DNA of 64,000 nucleotides from NCBI RefSeq assembly GCF_017312725.1, contig NZ_BOPO01000150.1:124001-188000 (forward strand), given 5' to 3'. A program made the translations under genes and the position numbers. Origin of the DNA: Actinocatenispora comari. Lineage in GTDB: Bacteria > Actinomycetota > Actinomycetes > Mycobacteriales > Micromonosporaceae. The notes under the pieces are model-generated. The model made no database searches and had not been told where the DNA came from. It worked only from the letters and a program-made list of their open reading frames with translations. Below are positions 1-36,599 of this stretch, piece after piece. The first letter of the stretch is position 1. Each line of letters opens with the position of its first letter.

Positions 1-1944
1 CTGGCCCGGCACCACTTCGTCGTCGTGGTCCGCGCCGACGACCGGAGGGTGTCGCTGGTGGATCCGGGGGTCGGGCGGCAGCGGCTGTCCCGCGCCGAGT
101 TCGACGACCAGTACGGCGGGGTGCTGCTGCGGCTGTCTCCCACCGATCGGTTGGAGCGGCGGCGAACCCGGTGGCGGGACGCGCCGATGGTGCGCTACCT
201 GCACCAGTTCGCCTCGGTACCGGGTGGGCGGCGGCTGATCGCGCTGACCGTGCTGTTCGCCGCGGGACTGCAGGCGCTGGGGCTGGGCATCCCGCTGCTG
301 ACCAAGCTGGTGGTGGACACCCTGGTACCGGCGCACCGAACGGATCTGCTGCCCGCCGTCGGCGCCGGCATCGTCGCGGTGGGCGTCGCGTACGGCGCGT
401 TGACGCTGGCCCGCGGACTGGCGTTGCTGACCCTGCGCGCGCTGGGCGACCGGGAGCTGACGCACGGGTTCGTCAAGCACCTGTTCCGGCTGCCGATCGG
501 GTTCTTCCTGGACCGCGGCCGCGGCGACCTGCTGATGCGCCTGTCGAGCGTGTCCACCACCCGGGAGACGTTGAGCCAGCAGCTGTTGACGATGATCGTC
601 GACGGGTTCCTGCTGATCGGCTACCTGATCGCGGTCGTGCTGCTGTCCCCGCTGTACCTGCTGCCGCTGGTGCCGCTGGCCGTCGCGCAGGCGCTGGTAC
701 TGGCCGCGACCTACCGGCGGCTGCGGGTGCTGGCGCAGCGGGAGCTGACCGCCCGCTCGGAGGAGCAGAGCTACCTGGTGGAGACGCTGGAGGCGGTGAT
801 CCCGCTGAAGGCCAACGGGGTGGAGGAGCGGGCCGTCGCGCACTGGCGGCGACTGTTCGACCGGTACCAGCGGGCGATGGTACGCCGTGGCCGCGGCACG
901 GCGGTACTCGGCGCCGCGCAGCGGGCGGTCGGCACGCTGGGCCCGCTGGCGCTGCTGTGGTTCGGTGCCGGCATGGTCCTGTCGGGCCGGTTGAGCCTGG
1001 GCGCGATGCTCGCCGCCAACGCCGTCGCGCTGTCGATCCTGTCGCCGCTGGAGACCTTCGCCGGTGTCGGCCAGCTGTACCACGCGGTGCGGGCCCAGGT
1101 GGAGCGGCTGTTCGACGTGCTCGACACGCCGGCCGAGCAGAGCGGTACGGTCCGGTTGCCGGCCGACGAGCCGACCCGGATCACGGTGCGGGGGTTGGGT
1201 TTCCGCTACCACGACAGCCAGCCGCCGATCCTCACCGACGTCGGGTTCGACCTGCCGCCCGGCGGCAAGCTCGGGGTGGTCGGCCGTACCGGCTCGGGCA
1301 AGAGCACGCTGGGACTGCTGCTGCTGGGCCTGCTGCGGCCCACCGAAGGCGAGGTACGCCACGACGGGGTCGCGGTGGCCGAGCTGGACGTGCCCGACCT
1401 GCGGTCGCACTGCGGCGCGGTGCTGCAGGAACTGACCCTGTTCAACGGCAGTATCCGGGACAACCTGGTACTGAGCCGGCCGGACGCCACCGACGCCGAG
1501 GTGATCGGCGCTGCCCGAGCCGCCGGCCTGCACGACGACGTGCTGGCGCTGCCGATGGGCTACGACACCCTCGTCGGTGAGGGGGGCACCGCGCTGTCGG
1601 CCGGCCAGCGGCAACGCATCGCGCTCGCCCGTGCGCTGGTGCACCGGCCCCGGCTGCTGGTGCTGGACGAGGCCACCAGCCACCTGGATCCGCAGACCGA
1701 GCGCGAGGTCGACGCCGCGCTGGCGCGGTTGGCGGTGACCCGGGTGGTCATCTCGCACCGGCTGTCGGCGATCCGCGGTGCCGACCAGATCCTGGTCCTG
1801 GACCGGGGGCGGGTCGTGCAGCGCGGCGGCCACGACGAGCTGGTGGCCGCCCATGGCCGGTACCGGCAGCTGTTCGGTACGGCCGATTCCGAGACCCGGG
1901 ACGGCGCCGTGCCGTCTCGTGACACCGAAAGGAGCATCCGATGA
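1..1944 (+). CDS. Lanthipeptide exporter/leader peptidase LanT (C39 peptidase-ABC transporter), 5' partial
   Basis: The frame is open from base 1, so the N-terminus lies outside the window; 647 residues are visible. The first residues (LARHHFVVV, then LVDP) match the His and Asp motifs of C39 bacteriocin-processing peptidases; the catalytic Cys would be upstream. A six-helix ABC exporter domain follows (about residues 65-350), then an ATPase with Walker A GRTGSGKST, signature LSAGQRQR, Walker B LLVLDEATS and H-loop ISHRLS. Enzymes of this family cut the double-Gly leader and export the peptide. The stop overlaps the ATG of the first precursor gene, and four precursors follow, so the substrates are adjacent. 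The LanM synthetase is expected just upstream (inference). Confidence 0.93.
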   Translation: MARHHFVVVVRADDRRVSLVDPGVGRQRLSRAEFDDQYGGVLLRLSPTDRLERRRTRWRDAPMVRYLHQFASVPGGRRLIALTVLFAAGLQALGLGIPLLTKLVVDTLVPAHRTDLLPAVGAGIVAVGVAYGALTLARGLALLTLRALGDRELTHGFVKHLFRLPIGFFLDRGRGDLLMRLSSVSTTRETLSQQLLTMIVDGFLLIGYLIAVVLLSPLYLLPLVPLAVAQALVLAATYRRLRVLAQRELTARSEEQSYLVETLEAVIPLKANGVEERAVAHWRRLFDRYQRAMVRRGRGTAVLGAAQRAVGTLGPLALLWFGAGMVLSGRLSLGAMLAANAVALSILSPLETFAGVGQLYHAVRAQVERLFDVLDTPAEQSGTVRLPADEPTRITVRGLGFRYHDSQPPILTDVGFDLPPGGKLGVVGRTGSGKSTLGLLLLGLLRPTEGEVRHDGVAVAELDVPDLRSHCGAVLQELTLFNGSIRDNLVLSRPDATDAEVIGAARAAGLHDDVLALPMGYDTLVGEGGTALSAGQRQRIALARALVHRPRLLVLDEATSHLDPQTEREVDAALARLAVTRVVISHRLSAIRGADQILVLDRGRVVQRGGHDELVAAHGRYRQLFGTADSETRDGAVPSRDTERSIR

Positions 1945-2135
1945 GCGAACTGATCCGGTCCTGGAAGGACCCGGACTCGACGCCCGCCGCGGCCAGCCCT
2001 GCCGGCGAGATCGACCTCGCGACCGAGGCCGGCGGGATGATCGCCGACAGCTGGGGCAGCGTGTGCCCGGCCTCGTGCAACGCCACCGTCGGCAGGGGCA
2101 CCTGCATGGTCAGTGCCACCGTGGGCTGCTGCTGA
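1941..2135 (+). CDS. Class II lanthipeptide precursor 1 (mersacidin/lichenicidin-type leader)
   Basis: A 64-aa peptide whose ATG overlaps the exporter stop (ATGA) and is preceded by AGGAG. The leader shows RSWKDPD near residues 6-12 and SPAG near 19-22, the hallmark of the mersacidin/lichenicidin leader family, and ends at EAGG, the probable cleavage site. The core of about 32 residues begins MIADSWGSVC and has five Cys and seven Ser/Thr. It ends with ATVGCC, so the twin Cys is C-terminal here but internal in the next three precursors. Ser/Thr dehydration and Cys addition by a LanM enzyme is inferred from the family. Confidence 0.9.
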   Translation: MSELIRSWKDPDSTPAAASPAGEIDLATEAGGMIADSWGSVCPASCNATVGRGTCMVSATVGCC

Positions 2136-2147
2136 GAGGGGACCGTG

Positions 2148-2342
2148 ATGAGTCAGCACGACACGATCCGCGGCTGGAAGGACACCGACGCCGTGACCCG
2201 CCCGGACAACCCGGCGGGCGAGTTGGCACTGACCGGGCACGGAGGGCTGGCGCCGAGCTCCGAGCACGCGTCGACCCTGGGCTGCTGCGGCGGGTTCACC
2301 AACGAGTCGACCTGCGGGCTGTGCCCGACCGACTTCTGCTGA
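2148..2342 (+). CDS. Class II lanthipeptide precursor 2
   Basis: A 64-aa peptide. I chose the ATG at 2148 (AGAGGGG about 7 nt upstream) over the in-frame GTG one codon before. The leader has RGWKDTD, a degenerate form of SWKDP, and NPAG, and ends at GHGG. The core of about 31 residues begins LAPSSEHAST and carries LGCCGG, then TCGLCP, and ends in Cys: five Cys and eight Ser/Thr. It lies 12 bp after precursor 1 and is probably co-transcribed with it. The C-terminal Cys spacing resembles that of beta peptides of two-component lantibiotics, but assigning a subtype is speculative. Confidence 0.9.
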   Translation: MSQHDTIRGWKDTDAVTRPDNPAGELALTGHGGLAPSSEHASTLGCCGGFTNESTCGLCPTDFC

Positions 2343-2400
2343 CCGGCGCCGCACCGATCCGATTCTTCCCGTACCCCAGCCGACAGCGAACGGAGAGCTC

Positions 2401-2586
2401 ATGACCGAGGACATCGTCCGGTCCTGGAAGGACCCGGACCTGCCCAGCATCCTGGACCACCCCGCCGGGCGGGTGGAGTTGGCGGACCCCGCGGGCGGCC
2501 AGCAGATCGCGACCGAGGGTGCGCTGACCTGGGGCTGCTGCCCCGACCAGACCGGCGTGCACTGGAGCTGCCTCAGCGCCTGCTGA
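2401..2586 (+). CDS. Class II lanthipeptide precursor 3
   Basis: A 61-aa peptide; ATG with GGAGAG at 2392-2397. The leader carries RSWKDPD and HPAG and ends at PAGG. The core of about 28 residues begins QQIATEGALT, contains TWGCCPD and ends SCLSAC: four Cys and five Ser/Thr. A 58-bp gap separates it from precursor 2, larger than its neighbour's, but no terminator was seen. It shares T-x-G-C-C with the other three precursors, while the rest of the core is unrelated in sequence, so these are diversified products rather than gene copies. Confidence 0.9.
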   Translation: MTEDIVRSWKDPDLPSILDHPAGRVELADPAGGQQIATEGALTWGCCPDQTGVHWSCLSAC

Positions 2587-2632
2587 GCCGGCCGTACCAC
2601 CGGACGAAGCGACGGACGAAGGGAGAGAACCG

Positions 2633-2806
2633 ATGGACACCGAGGACGTTCTGCGGTCCTGGAAGGACCCCGAGGTGCCAGCCGAGACGAACCCCGCCGG
2701 GAACCCGGAGCTGACGACGCTGTTCGGCGGCGTCATGCTCAACACCGAGGGTTGGAACACGTTCGGCTGCTGCGACACCGACCGCGGTTGCCGCACGTAC
2801 GGCTGA
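2633..2806 (+). CDS. Class II lanthipeptide precursor 4 (57 aa, shortest)
   Basis: Translated by hand from ATG 2633 to TGA 2804-2806, with GGGAGAG upstream. The leader has RSWKDPE at about residues 8-14, NPAG at 20-23 and a probable GG cleavage site at residues 33-34. The core of about 23 residues begins VMLNTEGWNT, contains TFGCCD and has a third Cys near the end: three Cys and four Thr, no Ser. Length and leader fit the set exactly, so it is a real fourth precursor that a length cut-off would miss. Confidence 0.88.
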   Translation: MDTEDVLRSWKDPEVPAETNPAGNPELTTLFGGVMLNTEGWNTFGCCDTDRGCRTYG

Positions 2807-2889: not shown

Positions 2890-5613
2890 TCAGGTTCGGG
2901 GCGCGCTGTGGAGGGCGTCGACCAGCATCGCGCGCGACCGTACCCCGAGCTTCCGGTAGGTCCGGGACAGGTGCGCCTCCACGGTCTTGACGGTCACGTG
3001 CAGCGCGGCGGCGATGTCGGCGTTCGTGGCGCCGGCCGCGACCAGCTCGGCGATCTGCCGCTCCCGCCGGGTCAACTCGCCGCGGGCGCCCGGCGCCGGT
3101 TGCCGGCCGGCGGCCGACTGCAACTGGCGTTGCGTGCCGGCGACCAGCCGCCGCAGCCACGGTGCCGGCATCGACGTGGCGAGCCGGTGGGCGCGCGCCA
3201 GCTGGTCGGTGACCGCCGACCAGCGGCCCGCTCGGGCGGACAGCGTGGCGGTGAGCAGCCGCGCGTACAGCTCGTCCGGGGCCCAGCCGAGCGCACCGAA
3301 GCCGGCGACGGCGTCCTCGGCGGCGTCGAGGGCCGCGTTCAGGTCGACCTCGGCCAGTACCCGGGCGCGCGCCGTCGCCACGTGCGCGTCGGCGCCGCGC
3401 AACCCCAGCGGCGCCGCATGGCGGGCGGCCTCGACGACCCAGTGCCGCGCGCGGTCCCGGTCGCCGCGGGCGAGGAACATCTCGCTGAGCACGGTGCACC
3501 AGTACGGCCGGTTGCACACCTCGACCCAGGCCATCGTCTCGCCACCGCAGGCGCGCAGCAGCGTGCCGGCGTCGACACCGGTGTCCCCGGCCGCGACGGC
3601 GATGCGGGCCCCGACCCGGGCGGCGATCTCGGCGAACCAGTCCCGCTCGGTACCCAGCGGTCGGCCGCCGGAGTCGCGCACCACCGTGGCAGCCTCGGCC
3701 GGGCCGGACACGTGCACCCGCGCCGAAGCCTGGAACGCCACCGCCAGGACGACGCTGGCGCCGCCCAGCCGGCGGGCCGCGTCGACGGCGTCGCGGGCGG
3801 CATCCAGCGCGGTGTCGAACGCGCCGAGCCGGCTGCTCGCGTACGAGCGGCCGACCAGCAGGTACGGCAGCAGATCGGCGTGCCCGGCCCGATCGGCGAT
3901 CGCGATGGCCCGGTCGAAGTGGCGCAGCGCCGCCGCGTCGCGCTCCAGCTCCAGTTCGGTCCAGCCGAGCATCCCGAACGGGTCGAGCAACTGCACCAGG
4001 TGCCCGTCGCTCAACGCGTCCAGGGCCTCGGCCGCCGCGGCCAGATCGGTGGGTACCGGGCCGCCCGTCATCGAGGTCAGGAACGCCCGCGCCACCTGCA
4101 CCGCCGCCCGGTACGCCGGGTCGCTGACCTCGCCGACCGCCCGTTGCGCGAGCGCCACGAACTCGGTCACCGCCGCCGAACCGCCGAACGCCGCGCACAT
4201 CGCGCCCTCCAGCGCGAGCAGCACCACCTGGCGCGGGTCGGTCGCGTCCGCCAGCTCGGCCCGCAGCGTGGCGACCGCCTCCGCGTACCGGCCGAGCAGC
4301 CGGGACAGTCGGGCGCGCACGAGCGCGTGCCGGGCCGGTTCGGTGCCCGGCGCCGGCGCGCGCAGGATCTCCGCGGCACCGCCCAGGTCGCCGGTGGCGA
4401 TCAACTGGCGTGCAGTCTCGACCTCGATGGTGGCGACCAGGTCCGGTTCGGCCGGGCCGAGCAGCGACCGGGCCGCCGTCAGGTACTCCACCGCGACGCC
4501 GGGTGCGCGCGGACCGATCTGGTGCGCGCAGTCGAGCAGCAGCCGCGCCGCCGGTACGTCCCCGGGCTGGGCGGAGCGCACCACGTGCAGCGCCCGTACC
4601 GGCGCGGTGCTGCCGCGGCGGCCGAGTTCGGCGGCGAGCCGGCGGTGCAGCCGGCGGCGCACCGAACCGGGCAGCTGCCGGTAGGCGAGGCTCTGCAGCA
4701 CCGGATGCCGGAACCAGAGGCGGCCGTCGCCGTCGAGTCGGAGCAGATCGCGGTGCTGCAACCGGTCCAGCGCAGCCTCGTACCGGTCGCTGCTGCCGCC
4801 GCCCGCCTCGTCGAGGCTGCAGGCGAGTACCAGGCTCGGCGGGCTGCCGTCGCCGGCGACCGCCGCGACCCCCAGTACCGTGGTCTGGTCGGCTTCCAGG
4901 CCGCCGATCTCGGCGCGCAGGGCGCCGACCGCCGGCCCCGCGGCGGGCTCGCCACCATCGACGCCGGTGCGCAGTGCCAAGGCGTACAACGGATTGCCGC
5001 CGGACGCGGCGTGGGTCTCGGTGAGTCGCGGCCCGGCCGGAAGGCCGACCAGGCGACCGACGTCGTCGACCGACAGCGGGCGCAGCGACAGCAGCTGACG
5101 CTCGACGGTCGGTGCACTGCGCCCGAGCGCCTCGGCCAGCTCCGGCGGGTCCTGCCGATGGCGATGCGCCACCGCCGCGACCAGACCGATCTCGGGCGGG
5201 TCCAGCAGCAGCCGACCGAGCAGGTCCAGCGATGCCGAGTCGGCCCAGTGCGCGTCGTCCAGGCACACCAGCGTCGGGCGGTCGAACGCGGCGCGCACCG
5301 CCCGGTACAGCTCCCAGCGGGTCAGGTCGGTGCCGCCACCGTTGCCGTCGACGCCGATCCGGAGGGTGCGCAGCAGCGGGGTCAACGCCGCGTACGGCAC
5401 GCCGGTGGTCATCCGGGCGCCCGCGGCGTGCACGGCGTGCAGGCCGCCGTCGCGGGCCCGCTCGTACAGCGCGGTCAGCAGCCGGGTCTTGCCCATGCCG
5501 GGGTCGCCGGCCAGCTCGACGAGCACGGTGCCGCCGCCCTGCCCCGACCGTACGGCGGCGTCGAGCGCGGTGAGTTCCGCGGCGCGGCCGACCAGCGTGG
5601 TACCACCATCCAT
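2890..5613 (-). CDS. LAL-type transcriptional regulator (AAA ATPase, LuxR HTH)
   Basis: 907 aa, the usual size of large ATP-binding LuxR (MalT-like) regulators. The N-terminus has VGRAAEL, then Walker A GDPGMGKT at residues 36-43. The long middle is helical and TPR-like. The last ~65 residues form a LuxR HTH, with TRRERQIAELVAAG and TVKTVEAHLSRTYRKLGV. The ATG at 5613 has GGAAGGTG 8 nt upstream. It converges on the precursor genes across a hairpin, so it is a candidate activator of the lanthipeptide locus; proximity is the only evidence. Its promoter must lie in 5614-5885, which holds no other gene. Confidence 0.9.
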   Translation of the reverse strand: MDGGTTLVGRAAELTALDAAVRSGQGGGTVLVELAGDPGMGKTRLLTALYERARDGGLHAVHAAGARMTTGVPYAALTPLLRTLRIGVDGNGGGTDLTRWELYRAVRAAFDRPTLVCLDDAHWADSASLDLLGRLLLDPPEIGLVAAVAHRHRQDPPELAEALGRSAPTVERQLLSLRPLSVDDVGRLVGLPAGPRLTETHAASGGNPLYALALRTGVDGGEPAAGPAVGALRAEIGGLEADQTTVLGVAAVAGDGSPPSLVLACSLDEAGGGSSDRYEAALDRLQHRDLLRLDGDGRLWFRHPVLQSLAYRQLPGSVRRRLHRRLAAELGRRGSTAPVRALHVVRSAQPGDVPAARLLLDCAHQIGPRAPGVAVEYLTAARSLLGPAEPDLVATIEVETARQLIATGDLGGAAEILRAPAPGTEPARHALVRARLSRLLGRYAEAVATLRAELADATDPRQVVLLALEGAMCAAFGGSAAVTEFVALAQRAVGEVSDPAYRAAVQVARAFLTSMTGGPVPTDLAAAAEALDALSDGHLVQLLDPFGMLGWTELELERDAAALRHFDRAIAIADRAGHADLLPYLLVGRSYASSRLGAFDTALDAARDAVDAARRLGGASVVLAVAFQASARVHVSGPAEAATVVRDSGGRPLGTERDWFAEIAARVGARIAVAAGDTGVDAGTLLRACGGETMAWVEVCNRPYWCTVLSEMFLARGDRDRARHWVVEAARHAAPLGLRGADAHVATARARVLAEVDLNAALDAAEDAVAGFGALGWAPDELYARLLTATLSARAGRWSAVTDQLARAHRLATSMPAPWLRRLVAGTQRQLQSAAGRQPAPGARGELTRRERQIAELVAAGATNADIAAALHVTVKTVEAHLSRTYRKLGVRSRAMLVDALHSAPRT

Positions 5614-5809
5614 CCCGCGTCACCTTCCCCGCACGCCGTGTGCACCCATCTTCGGGGATGACCGCCCATTCGGGCAGCCCCGCCGAGTCAGGCACGAGTC
5701 GCCCAGGAGGCGGTGCCCTGCGCGGCGACGCCCGCGGGTGCCCGTCGGCACCGGGCCGTACCGGCCCGACGGGCAGCCGGCTGTGGCCCGGGACGGGTCC
5801 GGACGGCAG

Positions 5810-5829
5810 GGTTCCGGACTCCCGGAACC
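5810..5829 (-). terminator. Candidate terminator downstream of the arginase-family gene
   Basis: GGTTCCGG (5810-5817) pairs perfectly with CCGGAACC (5822-5829) around an ACTC loop. It starts about 57 nt past the arginase-family stop on the same strand. The rest of 5614-5885 holds no convincing gene, only the upstream region of the LAL gene. Confidence 0.45.
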
Positions 5830-5885
5830 GGTGCCGGCCGGCCGCCGCGTCGAGTGCCTTGCGGTGTCCGGAGCCGGGTACGGGT

Positions 5886-6677
5886 TCAGGTCAGGCTGGC
5901 GCCGAGCGCCGTGGTGAGGCGGGTGATGGTCCGGCGGGTGGCGTGGTCGTCGACGTGTTCGGGGAGCCAGGCGCAGGCGAGGTAGGCGGCGGTGACGTCG
6001 GCGGTGGCGCAGGCGGCGGCCAGGCAGTCCGCGATCTGGGCGAGGGAGGGCCCGGGCCCGGAGGGAAAGCGCGCGCCGGGCAGTTCGGCGCCGTCGATGA
6101 CGTCGATGTCGAGGTGGAGGTAGACGGGGACGGGGCCCAGCTCGTCGAGCGCGGAGACCACTGCGGCGGGATCGGCGGGCACCCGGTGGACGTGGCTGCC
6201 GGTGAGGGCGTCACGCTCGGCGGGGTCGAGGTCGCGGGCGCCGGCGAGCACGACGTTGGTGTCCGGGACGGGTCGCAGGTCGAGCGGGTCGTCGAACAGG
6301 TCGGGTGTTCGGCCGGTCAGCATGGACAGTGCCATGCCGCCGAGGTACCCGCTGGTCGAGATGGCGGGGGTGTTGAAGTCGCCGTGCGCGTCCAGCCACA
6401 GCACGGCCAGGTCGCGATGGCGGCGCTGCAGGGCGGCGACCGCGGCGCGGGTGGTGGGGCAGTCGCCGGAGAGCACCAGCGGCCTGGCGGCCGACGCCAC
6501 CGTGTCGAGGGCGGCCCGGTGCAACCGGCTCATCCGGGCGGCGACGGAGCCGGCAGGAAGGGCCGGGCGGGGCGCCTGGGCGGCGGTGTCGGGGATCGGG
6601 AACGCGGGGAGGTACTCGTCGAGGTGCCAGGGTGTGACGACCAGATCCCAGCCGCTGTCGGTGCCGTGGTCAGCCAT
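5886..6677 (-). CDS. Arginase/agmatinase-family hydrolase
   Basis: 263 aa. Metal-ligand motifs of the ureohydrolase fold are visible: WLDAHGDFNT (DAHxD) and HLDIDVID (DxD). The first motif, normally GGDH, reads LSGDCPTT, so the first His ligand is replaced by Cys. Such variants occur in actinobacterial arginase-like proteins, and the substrate cannot be named from sequence. The start at 6677 overlaps the 3' end of the GntR gene by 8 nt, giving a GntR-arginase operon with translational coupling. Control by the GntR protein, perhaps in response to a guanidino or amidino compound, is inference. Confidence 0.85.
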   Translation of the reverse strand: MADHGTDSGWDLVVTPWHLDEYLPAFPIPDTAAQAPRPALPAGSVAARMSRLHRAALDTVASAARPLVLSGDCPTTRAAVAALQRRHRDLAVLWLDAHGDFNTPAISTSGYLGGMALSMLTGRTPDLFDDPLDLRPVPDTNVVLAGARDLDPAERDALTGSHVHRVPADPAAVVSALDELGPVPVYLHLDIDVIDGAELPGARFPSGPGPSLAQIADCLAAACATADVTAAYLACAWLPEHVDDHATRRTITRLTTALGASLT

Positions 6678-8305: not shown

Positions 8306-9319
8306 GTGATCGACGGAACGGTCCCGAGCCGGCAGGCCGGGCTGCTGCTGGGGGCGCTGCGTCGCGCTGGGCTCGGAGAGGGCGTCCGGGCCCGGCTGCC
8401 GGAGTTGGCCGACGACGTGCTGGCAGACGAACTCGCCCGCCCGTCGACCTCCAGCGCGATCCAGCTGTGGCGCGAGTTCACCCTGCTGCCGGACGACACC
8501 TTCATCGACTTGTTTCCCGCCGGCACGCTGCCACTGGGCGCGTTCGGCGTCTGGGACTACCTCTACACGGCCGGCCACGACCTCGCCGACTCCATCCGGC
8601 TGGCCACCGCACACATCGGCAACCTGGCCGACCCCTCCGTCGAACGACTCGAACTCATCGAAGCCGACGGGCTGCTGAGGTTGCAACGCGCCAACAGCGT
8701 CCCCGGTGACCCGGACGTCGCGGCCGTGATCGAACAGTTCGCCATGCTGCTGTACCTGTCCCGCTCCCGCGACGCGACCGGCCGGATGCTGACCCCGGCG
8801 CAGGTCAGCTTCACCCAACGCGCGCCGCGCCGGCACGGCAACCTTGCCCGTGCTCTGGGCACGAACCGCATCGAGTTCGACGCCGAGTACAACTCGCTGA
8901 CGCTGCGCAGCGACGACGGTCGGCTCGAGATCCCCCAGTTCCGGCCGGGACTGGGCGAGGTGTTGGGCAGGCACGCCGAGATGCTGCTCACCGCGTCGCG
9001 GCCGGTCCGATCCTGGCACGCCGGCTTCCGTACCGTGTTGCGGCGCAGCTTCGACGGCCGCGAGGTCTCTCTCGATGCGGTGGCGCGCCGGATGCGCATC
9101 AGCACCCGTACCCTGCAACGCCGGCTCGCCGAGCACCACACCACCTGGCGCGAGGAGGTGGAGGCAGCCCGCCGTGACGTGGCCACCACGCTGCTACGCG
9201 ACAGCCCGCTGCCGGTCGCCGCGATCGCCGCCCGCGTCGGCTACAGCGACGTACGCACCCTGCGTCGCGCGGTCCACCGATGGCACGGCCGTTCGCCCAG
9301 CGCGCTCCGAGCAGCCTGA
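8306..9319 (+). CDS. AraC-family regulator with arabinose-binding-like N-terminal domain
   Basis: 337 aa from GTG 8306, where family similarity begins (VIDGTVPSRQAGLLLGALRR). The N-terminal ~220 residues follow the layout of OruR/ArgR-like AraC regulators: FTLLPDDTFIDLF and PLGAFGVWDYLYTAG. The C-terminal ~100 residues carry the two AraC helix-turn-helices: LDAVARRMRISTRTLQRRL and VAAIAARVGYSDVRTLRRAV. Members of this subfamily usually act as transcriptional activators. No target is obvious; the next gene is convergent. Confidence 0.88.
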   Translation: MIDGTVPSRQAGLLLGALRRAGLGEGVRARLPELADDVLADELARPSTSSAIQLWREFTLLPDDTFIDLFPAGTLPLGAFGVWDYLYTAGHDLADSIRLATAHIGNLADPSVERLELIEADGLLRLQRANSVPGDPDVAAVIEQFAMLLYLSRSRDATGRMLTPAQVSFTQRAPRRHGNLARALGTNRIEFDAEYNSLTLRSDDGRLEIPQFRPGLGEVLGRHAEMLLTASRPVRSWHAGFRTVLRRSFDGREVSLDAVARRMRISTRTLQRRLAEHHTTWREEVEAARRDVATTLLRDSPLPVAAIAARVGYSDVRTLRRAVHRWHGRSPSALRAA

Positions 9320-33015: not shown

Positions 33016-35160
33016 TCAGCCGCCCCGTTGGTCCTCGGCAAGCTCGCCGAAGCCGTCGAGCTCGTCGAAGCCATCGAGCTCGTCGAAGCGCAGCAGGCGC
33101 AACCCGGCGACCCGCCAGCCGGTTCTGCCCGCACGGTGCGGGTCGAGGTCGCGCACCGCGGCGCCAGCGGTGTCGTGAAGGTACACCGAGCCGTCCTGGT
33201 GAATCGCCCAGTACCCGTCCGGGGTGAAGGCGACCGTCCGGGTGGCGTGCGGCTGCGCGGTACCGGTCGCGGCGTCGCAGACGCGCACGGCGTGCTCGGT
33301 GCCGGCGACCAGCCGGCGACCGTCGGCGGCGAAGCGCAGCTCGGTGATCGCCGGACCGGGGACCGACCAGGGCCAGGGGCCGAGCACGGCGTCGACCGGA
33401 AGCGACCAGAACTCGGCCCCGCTGACGGCGCCGTACACCGCGAGCCGATCGGCGGTGGCAACGGCGAGCCGGTGGCCGCCCGGTGCGTACGCGGCGGCGG
33501 TGAGGGTGCCTTCGCGATGCCACAGCTCCCCGTCGTCGGTGGTGTCCGGGCCGAACTGCCAGGTCGACCACCGCTGCCGGCCACCGCTGACGGCGCGTAC
33601 CTGATCGGGCTCGGCGAAGGCGATGGCCAGCGGCGCCTCACCGCCGGTGGACCAGCGACCCACCGGCGCACCGCTGCCGGCGTGCCGCGCCGCCACCCGG
33701 TACTCCCCGAGAACGGGATCGACGCAACCGGCCGCGATCAGCCGGCCGTTCGGCGAGTGGGCGATGCACCGGTGCCACTGATCGGTGTCGGTGCCCAGCG
33801 ACCATCGCTGGTACCCGTCCGCCACCTCCTGCACGCAGAGATCGTGATCGGTGGCGCGATCGGTACCGGCCGGGTGATGGGCGCCGAGCGCGAACCAGCG
33901 ACCGCCCGGTGCGAAGGACAGCTCGACCGTGCGTGGCACCCGCAGGCAGGTGGTGCCGAACGACGGGATCTCCTCGGTCCACACCGGTTCGAGGCCGCGG
34001 GAACCGAGATCCCAGACCCGGACCTCGGTGAGGTGACCGCTGTCGTGGTCGCTGCCGCCGATCCGCGCGACGCACGCCAGATGGGCGCCGTCGGGGGAGA
34101 AGCCCAGCGCGGCCACCTCCACCCAGGCGTCGTCGCAGAACTCGAAGCCCTGCACCGGGCTCCAGTCCCAACCGAGCTCGTACTCGCGCAGCAGCATGCC
34201 GGTGGCGGCGTCCCAGAGCCGGATCGTGGCGTCCTCGTGGCCGGTGGCGACCAGGTCGTCGGTGACCGCGAGAACGGTGGCGGGAGCGTCCGGGTGCCGG
34301 CAGACCGGGCGTTCGAGTCGCGCGGTCGGGGCCACCACCGCGCGCCGGATGCGGGCAGTAGCCAGCGCATCGGCATCCACCGTCGCCTTGGTGAGCACCA
34401 CGCGGTCCAGCGTCGTGGCGGTAGGGTGGGCGCCGGTGAGATCCGCGCCGGTCAGCCAGGCGTCGGTCAGATCGGCCGCGCACAGCACCGCGCCGACCAG
34501 CCGGGCGCCGTCGAGGCGGGCACCGACCAGCCGCGCACCGGCCAGGTTCGCGCCGGTCAGATCCGCCTCGACCAGCAGCGCTCCGCTCAGTTCGGCGCCA
34601 CCGAGATCGGCGTCGCGCAGGTCGTGCCCGGACAGGTCCGCGCCGCGCAGCTCACGGCGGGGCGTGCCCGCGGGCCGCGGAGACGCGTACGTGTGTGCGG
34701 CCCACGCGAGCAGGCTGCCGCGGGCAGCGTCCACCGCGGGATGGCGGGCGCCGGACGCCTCGCGGGCCAGCGCGAGCGCCTCGCCCAATTCCAGCAACTC
34801 GCCGGACCGCTCGTAGCTCAACGCCAGCGCGACGGCGAGCGTGGTGGCCACCCACGGCCGGTCCGGATCGGCCGCGGGCAGCGCCGCCAGCGCGGCCCGG
34901 CCCGCCGCGACCGCCCCGGCGAGGTCGGCCGGATCCCGCCGCGGCAGCGGCGCCAACGGATCGGCCGGCACCCGCGAGGGGTAGCGGTCGCACCCGGGGT
35001 CGTCGCCCCGCTGGTACCGGGTCGTCAGCGCGGCGGCAAGACCACCGAGACGCCGCGCGCGGTTCCTGTCGCCGGCGGCGGCGCGTCCCAACAACGCCGG
35101 TGCCACCGCCAGGGTCGTCGCGTCGCCGGACTCGATCCACAGGGACACAGCACTGCTCAT
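33016..35160 (-). CDS. Pentapeptide-repeat/WD40 fusion protein
   Basis: 714 aa from ATG 35160 (AAAGG upstream; an ATG 30 nt earlier is also open). Residues to ~170 form an Ala-rich helical TPR-like region. Next come about 15 pentapeptide repeats (LRGADLSGHDLRDADLGGAE, ADLTGANLAGARLVGARLDG). From about residue 300 a WD40-type propeller follows (VATGHEDATIRLWDAATGML, LTEVRVWDLG). Such repeats make protein scaffolds; no enzymatic motif is visible. It is divergent from the LanC-like gene, with only 86 bp between. The C-terminus carries a short DELDGF tandem repeat. Confidence 0.85.
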   Translation of the reverse strand: MSSAVSLWIESGDATTLAVAPALLGRAAAGDRNRARRLGGLAAALTTRYQRGDDPGCDRYPSRVPADPLAPLPRRDPADLAGAVAAGRAALAALPAADPDRPWVATTLAVALALSYERSGELLELGEALALAREASGARHPAVDAARGSLLAWAAHTYASPRPAGTPRRELRGADLSGHDLRDADLGGAELSGALLVEADLTGANLAGARLVGARLDGARLVGAVLCAADLTDAWLTGADLTGAHPTATTLDRVVLTKATVDADALATARIRRAVVAPTARLERPVCRHPDAPATVLAVTDDLVATGHEDATIRLWDAATGMLLREYELGWDWSPVQGFEFCDDAWVEVAALGFSPDGAHLACVARIGGSDHDSGHLTEVRVWDLGSRGLEPVWTEEIPSFGTTCLRVPRTVELSFAPGGRWFALGAHHPAGTDRATDHDLCVQEVADGYQRWSLGTDTDQWHRCIAHSPNGRLIAAGCVDPVLGEYRVAARHAGSGAPVGRWSTGGEAPLAIAFAEPDQVRAVSGGRQRWSTWQFGPDTTDDGELWHREGTLTAAAYAPGGHRLAVATADRLAVYGAVSGAEFWSLPVDAVLGPWPWSVPGPAITELRFAADGRRLVAGTEHAVRVCDAATGTAQPHATRTVAFTPDGYWAIHQDGSVYLHDTAGAAVRDLDPHRAGRTGWRVAGLRLLRFDELDGFDELDGFGELAEDQRGG
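33041..33094 (-). repeat. Three 18-bp tandem repeats in the 3' end of the WD40 gene
   Basis: Units at 33041-33058, 33059-33076 and 33077-33094 share AGCTCGYCGAAGC. They encode DELDGF twice plus the degenerate GELAED near the C-terminus. This is likely slippage-generated and may vary in copy number between strains. Confidence 0.75.
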
Positions 35161-35246
35161 CGCCGCCTTTGTACCCGATGCGTGCGACATGCCCGAGCCT
35201 ACGACGCGTTGCGGGCCCGGCGCGGGTGGGCTGGGACGATGGGGGT

Positions 35247-36599
35247 GTGGTGTCGCGTGCGCTCCAGAACCGGGCCGAGCAGTTGGCGGTCGAGGCCCTG
35301 TCCTGGCTGGTCGACCAGGGCCGGCCGGCCGGTGCCGCGCTGGTGTGGCCGAACCGGCCCAGCGAGGGTGAGAACGACCCGATGCTCTACAGCGGTGCGG
35401 CCGGGATCGCGCTGACCCTGCTGGAGGCGTACGGCCACTTCGGCGACGAACGTCACGCCGAGCGTGCCCTGCGGGCCGGTCGCGGGCTGGTGGCGGTCGT
35501 CGACGACGAGTGGGACAACAGCTCGCTGTACTTCGGACTGACCGGGATCGCGGTCGCGTTGCACGCGATCCACGAGCAGCTCGGCGACCCCCGGGCCGGC
35601 GCCGCGGCCCGCAGGGCGATCGACACGGTACGGCGCCGCTTCGACGGCCATCGGTGGGGGCCGCAGGTGGATCTGTTGGGCGGCAACGCCGGTATCGCTC
35701 TCGGCGCCCTCGCCGTGGGCGATCCCGAGCTGGCCCTGATGGCGGTCACCCCGTTCCTGTCCACCGCCGAACCCACCCGCCACGGGGTGCAGTGGGAAAC
35801 GCGGCAGGGGCGCGTCGCCCGGCAGCATCACGTCTCCCACGGCACGCTGGGGGTGGTCGCCGCGCTCGCCGCGGTCGGACGAGCCACCGACCGCACCGAC
35901 CTGCTCGAGCTGGCACTGGCCGGGGCCGACGACGTCGTGTCCCGCGACGAGGCCGGACCGGACGGTTTCCTCGTCCCGCACTCCGACCCACCCGACCGGC
36001 CCGAGCTCATCGACCGGTACAACTTCGGCTGGTGTCAGGGACCGGCCGGCGACGCCCAGGTCTTCCGCCTGCTGCAGCGCGAATTCGGCGAGCCGCGGTT
36101 TGCCCGGTTGGTCGACCGCTGCTGGTACACCGTGACCCACTGCGGCCTGCCCCGACGGCTGCGCCCAGGATTCTGGGACAACAACGGACACTGCTGCGGT
36201 ACCGCCGGGGTGCTGGCGCTCGCCTGCGATCTGCTTGCCGCCGACGCTCCCGGTGCCGGCTCCGCCGCCGACATTCCCGGTGCCGGTTCTGCCGACGACA
36301 TTCCCGATGCCGGCTCCGCCGACGACGGTGCCGGTGTCGACTTCGCCGACGTGCTCGTGGCCGATCTCGCCGACCGGGCGACCCGGGGCGCGGCGGGATG
36401 CCGCTGGTCCAACGTCGAACACCGCGTGACGCCGAGCATCCTGGAACCCCGTACCGGCTGGGCGATGGGCAGCGCCGGCATCGTGCGGGAACTGCTGCGG
36501 TACGCGCGCATCGGCACGGACCGCGATCCCGGATACCGGGTGGCCTGGCCGGACCAGCCCGCGCAGCGGTTCAGCCCGACGGGTTCAGCAGAGCGGTGA
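35247..36599 (+). CDS. Orphan LanC-like cyclase with CCG zinc motif
   Basis: 450 aa from GTG 35247 (GTG 35250 also possible). The alpha/alpha-barrel repeats of LanC are visible: LYSGAAGIALTLLEAYG, FGLTGIAVALHAIHEQ and HHVSHGTLGVVAALAAVG. Zinc-site motifs are FGWCQGPAGDAQV and NNGHCCGTAGVLAL. The second has Cys-Cys-Gly where most LanC have Cys-His-Gly, as in ProcM-type synthetases that use three Cys ligands. There is no lyase, kinase or precursor gene nearby, so thioether formation is unproven. Residues ~332-367 are an inserted tandem repeat. It overlaps the APH gene convergently by 29 bp. Confidence 0.85.
   Translation: MVSRALQNRAEQLAVEALSWLVDQGRPAGAALVWPNRPSEGENDPMLYSGAAGIALTLLEAYGHFGDERHAERALRAGRGLVAVVDDEWDNSSLYFGLTGIAVALHAIHEQLGDPRAGAAARRAIDTVRRRFDGHRWGPQVDLLGGNAGIALGALAVGDPELALMAVTPFLSTAEPTRHGVQWETRQGRVARQHHVSHGTLGVVAALAAVGRATDRTDLLELALAGADDVVSRDEAGPDGFLVPHSDPPDRPELIDRYNFGWCQGPAGDAQVFRLLQREFGEPRFARLVDRCWYTVTHCGLPRRLRPGFWDNNGHCCGTAGVLALACDLLAADAPGAGSAADIPGAGSADDIPDAGSADDGAGVDFADVLVADLADRATRGAAGCRWSNVEHRVTPSILEPRTGWAMGSAGIVRELLRYARIGTDRDPGYRVAWPDQPAQRFSPTGSAER
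36240..36347 (+). repeat. 27-bp tandem repeats (four units) inside the LanC-like gene
   Basis: Units 36240-36266, 36267-36293, 36294-36320 and a degenerate 36321-36347 encode ADAPGAGSA, ADIPGAGSA, DDIPDAGSA and DDGAGVDFA. They sit between the CCG zinc motif and the last barrel helix, so they form a flexible acidic loop near the active site. Confidence 0.8.

Follow-up and report, generated by a model that had tools for sequence, protein, structure and literature searches.

Precursor, modification and export genes of the cluster

Four class II lanthipeptide precursor genes fill exactly positions 1941-2806 of the window (the whole 64,000-nucleotide stretch of Actinocatenispora comari DNA analysed here), all on the forward strand and each encoding one TxGCC motif in its core; an earlier note had placed four such ORFs there, and the class II context it implied is present. 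A1 (1941-2135; leader MSELIRSWKDPDSTPAAASPAGEIDLATEAGG, core MIADSWGSVCPASCNATVGRGTCMVSATVGCC) is beta-like by its alignment with beta peptides. The other three are alpha-like: A2 (2148-2342, with a GTG at 2145 as alternative start; leader MSQHDTIRGWKDTDAVTRPDNPAGELALTGHGG, core LAPSSEHASTLGCCGGFTNESTCGLCPTDFC) carries SEHASTLGCC, A3 (2401-2586; leader MTEDIVRSWKDPDLPSILDHPAGRVELADPAGG, core QQIATEGALTWGCCPDQTGVHWSCLSAC) carries TEGALTWGCC and A4 (2633-2806; leader MDTEDVLRSWKDPEVPAETNPAGNPELTTLFGG, core VMLNTEGWNTFGCCDTDRGCRTYG) carries TEGWNTFGCC. The leaders are about 33 residues long and the cores 24-32. [SG]WKD, (S/N/H)PAG and GG are present in every leader, in agreement with the SWKDP-like, PAG and GG elements read earlier, and the NCBIfam mersacidin/lichenicidin model TIGR03898 matches all four leaders at 13.7-20.5 bits, under its cut-off of 23.5. 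Pfam returned nothing usable for the precursors; DUF6229 matched A2 at E 0.009, below the cut-off.

The gene order is A0-LanM-LanT-A1-A2-A3-A4, and the window begins within the operon. A LanM gene, which the earlier note had expected upstream, lies to the left of the window (P0001, 1090 aa, L006:6483-9755); its product was assigned from domain and NCBIfam matches (TIGR03897, 827 bits against a cut-off of 304; DUF4135, PF13575, E 6e-114; LANC_like, PF05147, E 4.4e-48) and has CHG at both zinc-site motifs (AWCHGAPGIG and HSICHGDLGN). Its stop overlaps by 4 bp the start of the LanT gene (P0002, L006:9752-11944), which encodes a C39 peptidase-ABC exporter of 730 aa on the forward strand, with Pfam matches to Peptidase_C39 (PF03412, E 2.8e-24), ABC_membrane and ABC_tran. 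The first 249 bp of this gene lie to the left of the window, so that window positions 1-1944 hold the C-terminal 647 aa, a portion that alone also matches C39, and its stop overlaps the start of A1 in the ATGA at 1941-1944.

A fifth precursor gene, A0 (L006:6168-6352), was missed earlier; it lies some 3.6 kb to the left of the window, and 130 bp separate its end from the start of LanM. Its leader MDHEQTIRGWKDLDAPGGSNPAGRIELDSAHGG is like those of A1-A4, and its core MIATPRTDWNWLSDDCCLSGVTCGVTCS has SDDCC in place of TxGCC, keeping [S/T]-x-x-C-C; TIGR03898 does not match it. G003, a genome of the same genus, encodes an identical core, so A0 is most likely a real gene by this comparison, and TxGCC is therefore not universal even within its own cluster.

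Downstream, a gene for a LuxR-type ATPase regulator (2890-5613) is convergent with the precursors, its stop lying 83 bp past the end of A4. The stretch read around the cluster showed no dedicated immunity gene. The host genome has a second LanM (L007:6144-10785, on G000:C75; TIGR03897, 759 bits) with a candidate precursor nearby, MSAEELVRAWRDEDFRLELESAVAHPAGDVDRELYVSTGAASTCNYASVTCSHICSCAI, that is without TxGCC. Elsewhere in the window, 34695-36599 encodes a LanC-like protein (LANC_like, E 3e-33), and neither a kinase nor a dehydratase domain was recognised in its ORF; its nearest curated model is class IV LanL, far under the cut-off of that model.

The TxGCC motif and two peptide types

As the earlier note had described, TxGCC occurs in all four cores, at the C-terminus of A1 (ATVGCC) and internally in A2 (STLGCC), A3 (LTWGCC) and A4 (NTFGCC). 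When each core was shuffled 200,000 times, the probability of TxGCC was 0.0054-0.0115 per core and about 3.5e-9 jointly. At the DNA level the corresponding pattern shows no genome-wide enrichment (178 matches in 8 Mb, against 175 for a reversed control), and the presence of TxGCC in all four short cores is thus not background; across 397 genomes the pattern matched everywhere at about the control rate and was uninformative.

In the roseocin family, S/TxxxxTxGCC has been described as the alpha motif and C-terminal GS/TxxxxS/TxGCC as the beta motif (Chaudhary et al., PMC10027976), so that the internal and C-terminal copies represent two peptide types. A2, A3 and A4 fit the alpha motif exactly and A0 does not. 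The cores had been called unrelated except for TxGCC; that motif is indeed in all four, but A2-A4 also have [ST]-E-x3-T-x-G-C-C in common, and an alignment of A2 with alpha peptides from other genera covers about 19 residues, the A2 stretch TLGCCGGFTNESTC being similar to TLGCCGGFTARETPC of M. arida. Glu occupies position 2 of the motif in 14 of 18 alphas, A2-A4 included, and is not found in roseocin alpha. The end of A1, GTCMVSATVGCC (GTC-x4-TVGCC), equals the published beta motif plus one residue and is not an exact match. A1 aligns with the beta peptides of G134, Planotetraspora, M. arida, Catellatospora and G117, with an approximate consensus of C-x-x-T-[VIFL]-x-x-G-[TS]-C-x3-4-[TS]-x-G-C-C. 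Known members served as positive controls: SGVLGTLGCC and SGWTVCGLAC, both published for Ros-alpha, occur in a peptide of the roseocin genome G985, and alpha/beta pairs were recovered from M. arida and Catellatospora methionotrophica, which had been described as type 3 hosts.

Related clusters and LanM phylogeny

The genome G003 has an orthologous cluster with all five precursors and TxGCC at the corresponding places in the counterparts of A1-A4; the cores of A0-A4 differ from their orthologues by 0-3 residues (A3 by one amino acid) and the LanMs are about 91% identical. Compared with the window genome, the LanM and LanT genes of G003 (L052:6053-9321 and 3865-6053) carry one frameshift each, near residues 783-789 in the first and near 633 in the second, reflecting either sequencing errors or decay. 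The order LanM-LanT-beta-alpha-alpha-alpha in Planotetraspora thailandica (L067) is that of the window, and G134, from another genus of the same family, has LanM-LanT-beta-alpha-core without motif-alpha-alpha-second LanM, its first LanM being represented by the C-terminus only, at a contig end. Exactly one beta-type peptide stands beside several alphas in the window, G003, G134 and P. thailandica.

In G003, G134, P. thailandica and Nonomuraea soli, TxGCC recurs in an equivalent context behind the same leader, as the earlier note had predicted for relatives. Its view that all members share the motif in one context holds for A1-A4 and fails for A0, for one of the five precursors of G134, and for the sole precursors of Planotetraspora silvatica and Streptosporangium subroseum. 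The last two (L068:13487-13873 and L069:13563-13838) each consist of a single beta-like core in which the VGC of SVGCC is missing; neither genome yielded an alpha anywhere. Nonomuraea soli (L070:13140-14243) has four alpha-type cores, one of them degenerate (TWRCC), behind one LanM and LanT, and no beta was found in its whole genome at the sensitivity used. Precursors found at the Umezawaea, Dactylosporangium and Catenulispora loci, which belong to the same LanM clade, are without TxGCC. No precursor was recognised at the Kitasatospora, Streptomyces NRRL F-6131 and two Micromonospora loci, which makes an absence of the motif there uncertain. In G142 (L054-L059), scattered precursor-like ORFs have WKDPD...HPAG leaders and Asp/Glu-Trp-rich C-termini, at least one of them beside a LanM.

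Roseocin-type alpha and beta peptides also lie beside LanM genes on a 419-kb contig of a Chloroflexi MAG (L097:7219-7821; G+C 48%) and on a Gemmatimonas MAG contig (L118:2804-3175 and 8665-9132), whereas no core conservation beyond actinobacteria was reported for the roseocin family (PMC10027976). With MAG binning as a caveat, these pairs do not look like actinobacterial contamination, judging from the low G+C of the Chloroflexi contig and the LanM placements of both MAGs.

Quick trees were built from 52 and 39 LanMs, a small set chosen for their similarity to the LanM of the window. The window LanM belongs to a clade of 15 rows (SH-aLRT 100) that adjoins the Streptosporangiaceae LanMs and is apart from the roseocin LanMs. 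Constraining it to group with the roseocin LanMs was rejected (AU p 2.85e-5), and grouping it with Streptosporangiaceae was not (p 0.47). Since it lies outside the RosM clade, unrelated LanM lineages have the motif in common. A single origin of all TxGCC LanMs was considered too, and the one-clade constraint was rejected (p 1.8e-6) within this small, similarity-drawn set and its quick trees.

Comparison with roseocin and possible mode of action

To our knowledge, roseocin is among the few characterised two-component lantibiotics of actinomycetes. It is without the classical lipid II motif, and CTxTx(D/E)C is absent from all five cores A0-A4; the alpha peptides of mersacidin, lacticin 3147 and haloduracin differ in having it, though they likewise have a class II leader of the mersacidin/lichenicidin type, the kind that TIGR03898 matches weakly and below its cut-off here. 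The TxGC spacing is that of ring B of nisin (T-P-G-C), a generic four-residue ring that is readily closed; nisin itself is a class I lantibiotic made by LanB/LanC, with no second vicinal Cys and no sequence relation to the peptides of the window. A prochlorosin-like diversification was not favoured, with CHG at both LanM sites and the precursors clustered, not dispersed. The window shares with roseocin (Ros-alpha and Ros-beta of Streptomyces roseosporus) the exact alpha motif in A2-A4, a beta-like peptide with C-terminal TxGCC, the WKDP/PAG leader, a single CHG-type LanM and a C39 LanT. It departs from roseocin in a LanM outside the RosM clade, the order LanM-LanT-beta-alphas, three or four alphas to a beta in place of a single one, shorter cores, a beta motif longer by one residue and the Glu at position 2 of the alpha motif. 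Roseocin consists of two peptides with synergistic activity, made by one LanM, with overlapping rings proposed in the motif (PMC10027976). Published types of its family have two or three precursors each; the type 1 cluster, in S. rhizosphaericus, has one LanM and three precursors including LanA2A (PMC10027976) and so resembles the five-precursor cluster of the window in combining one LanM with extra alpha-related precursors. The nearest described group is probably formed by the 'small-sized' homologues with duplicated genes or several LanMs, which were left unclassified (PMC10027976).

On these sequence comparisons, we consider it probable that the cluster encodes a roseocin-like two-component lantibiotic with one beta (A1) and an expanded set of alphas, A2-A4 plus the degenerate A0 upstream of LanM. 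LanM and LanT directly upstream, the exact alpha motif of A2-A4, the alignment of A1 with betas, the gene order of P. thailandica, the cluster of G134, the recovery of the roseocin and type 3 pairs and the conservation of the orthologous cores all argue for this reading. The separation of the LanM from the roseocin LanMs, the extra residue in the A1 motif, the broken pairing within the same LanM clade and the failure to see a dedicated immunity gene in the stretch read argue against it. The five peptides would probably be an antibiotic set of the known roseocin kind; by their sequences the peptides are roseocin-like, but by its LanM the cluster is not a strict member of the roseocin family.

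Because strict pairing is not always kept in the LanM clade of the window, the main rival is that these are independent lanthipeptides diversified in prochlorosin-like fashion behind one tolerant LanM, each alpha acting alone with the motif as a common binding ring and no partner needed. The four alphas without a beta in N. soli, the beta-like peptides alone in P. silvatica and S. subroseum, and the service of at least five cores of differing length and Cys number by one LanM speak for it. We nevertheless regard it as unlikely: several alphas are accompanied by one beta-type peptide, and no more than one, in the window and in G003, G134 and P. thailandica, beta has lost GCC where alpha is absent, and the LanM is of the CHG type, whereas prochlorosin synthetases are CCG-type LanMs.

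TxGCC might also reflect a mere ring-closing preference of the window LanM and not a target-binding unit, in keeping with how generic and easily closed T-x-G-C is. We judge this highly improbable, given that the same LanM must also process A0, which lacks the motif, that TxGCC recurs with unrelated LanM lineages and in other phyla, and that the upstream S/T and mostly the Glu are conserved as well. A chance or compositional origin, to which short cores rich in Cys, Gly and Thr would lend themselves, is practically negligible beside the joint shuffle probability and the conservation of the motif in other genera and families. As to the vicinal Cys residues of GCC, they may form a plain disulfide, but the disulfide described for Ros-alpha, C13-C33, lies outside GCC (PMC10027976).

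Under the two-component reading, the single CHG-type LanM would dehydrate Ser and Thr residues and close thioether rings on all five cores, and LanT, going by its families, would cleave after GG and then export the products. In the alphas, Thr6 of TxGC would close a four-residue ring with Cys9, with the spacing of nisin ring B, and Cys10 would pair with S/T1, five residues upstream of Thr6, to give a ring within a ring; the pairing in the motif may, on the other hand, be crossed. In the A4 core, which has three Cys, the nested pattern would join T10 to C13 and T5 to C14. If every Cys is matched by one dehydration, the calculated monoisotopic neutral masses of the cores are 2961.24 (A0), 3046.25 (A1), 3017.19 (A2), 2892.22 (A3) and 2644.07 (A4). 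A 'ring within a ring' was proposed for the alpha motif of the roseocin family, whose authors likened the alpha double ring to the N-terminal rings of nisin (PMC10027976). Ring structures of Ros-alpha and Ros-beta were published in 2026 (J. Nat. Prod. 89:519 and 89:1414, as cited in PMC13060208), and those papers, to go by that citation, may already have settled the assignments proposed here. Binding of the target, perhaps a lipid II-type one, would fall to the double ring of the alpha, and the TxGCC unit at the C-terminus of A1 would be the matching part of the beta, which would complete the action, with A2-A4 and A0 as alternative partners of this single beta.

The occurrence of TxGCC in relatives with the same leader and with different LanM lineages fits a conserved functional unit, and a pharmacophore, as suggested in the earlier note, is plausible from the sequences. 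The companion idea of one motif on variable scaffolds needs correction in that the copies of the motif mark beta and alpha peptide types. More tentatively, and with considerable doubt, the [ST]-E-x3-[ST]-x-G-C-C double ring could be a target-binding module kept while the enzymes around it were exchanged, across unrelated LanM lineages and at least three phyla; one beta with several alphas would then yield a small combinatorial two-component set, and the Glu would act as in the mersacidin-type CTxTxEC.

Relative to PMC10027976, and within a limited sample drawn by similarity, the new elements are a motif-bearing cluster whose LanM is not in the RosM clade, so that unrelated LanM lineages carry the motif, the alpha/beta pairs in Chloroflexi and Gemmatimonas MAGs, the Glu at motif position 2 and the alpha expansion; sister clusters with broken alpha/beta pairing, as read from their precursor genes, are also new. 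Alphas that retain [ST]-E-x3-T-x-G-C-C while the rest varies point to the target-binding part of roseocin and offer ready test peptides, and the alpha-only and beta-only clusters are natural controls on the need for pairing. If the motif does span LanM lineages and phyla, a search for it would find members of the family that are missed by LanM homology.
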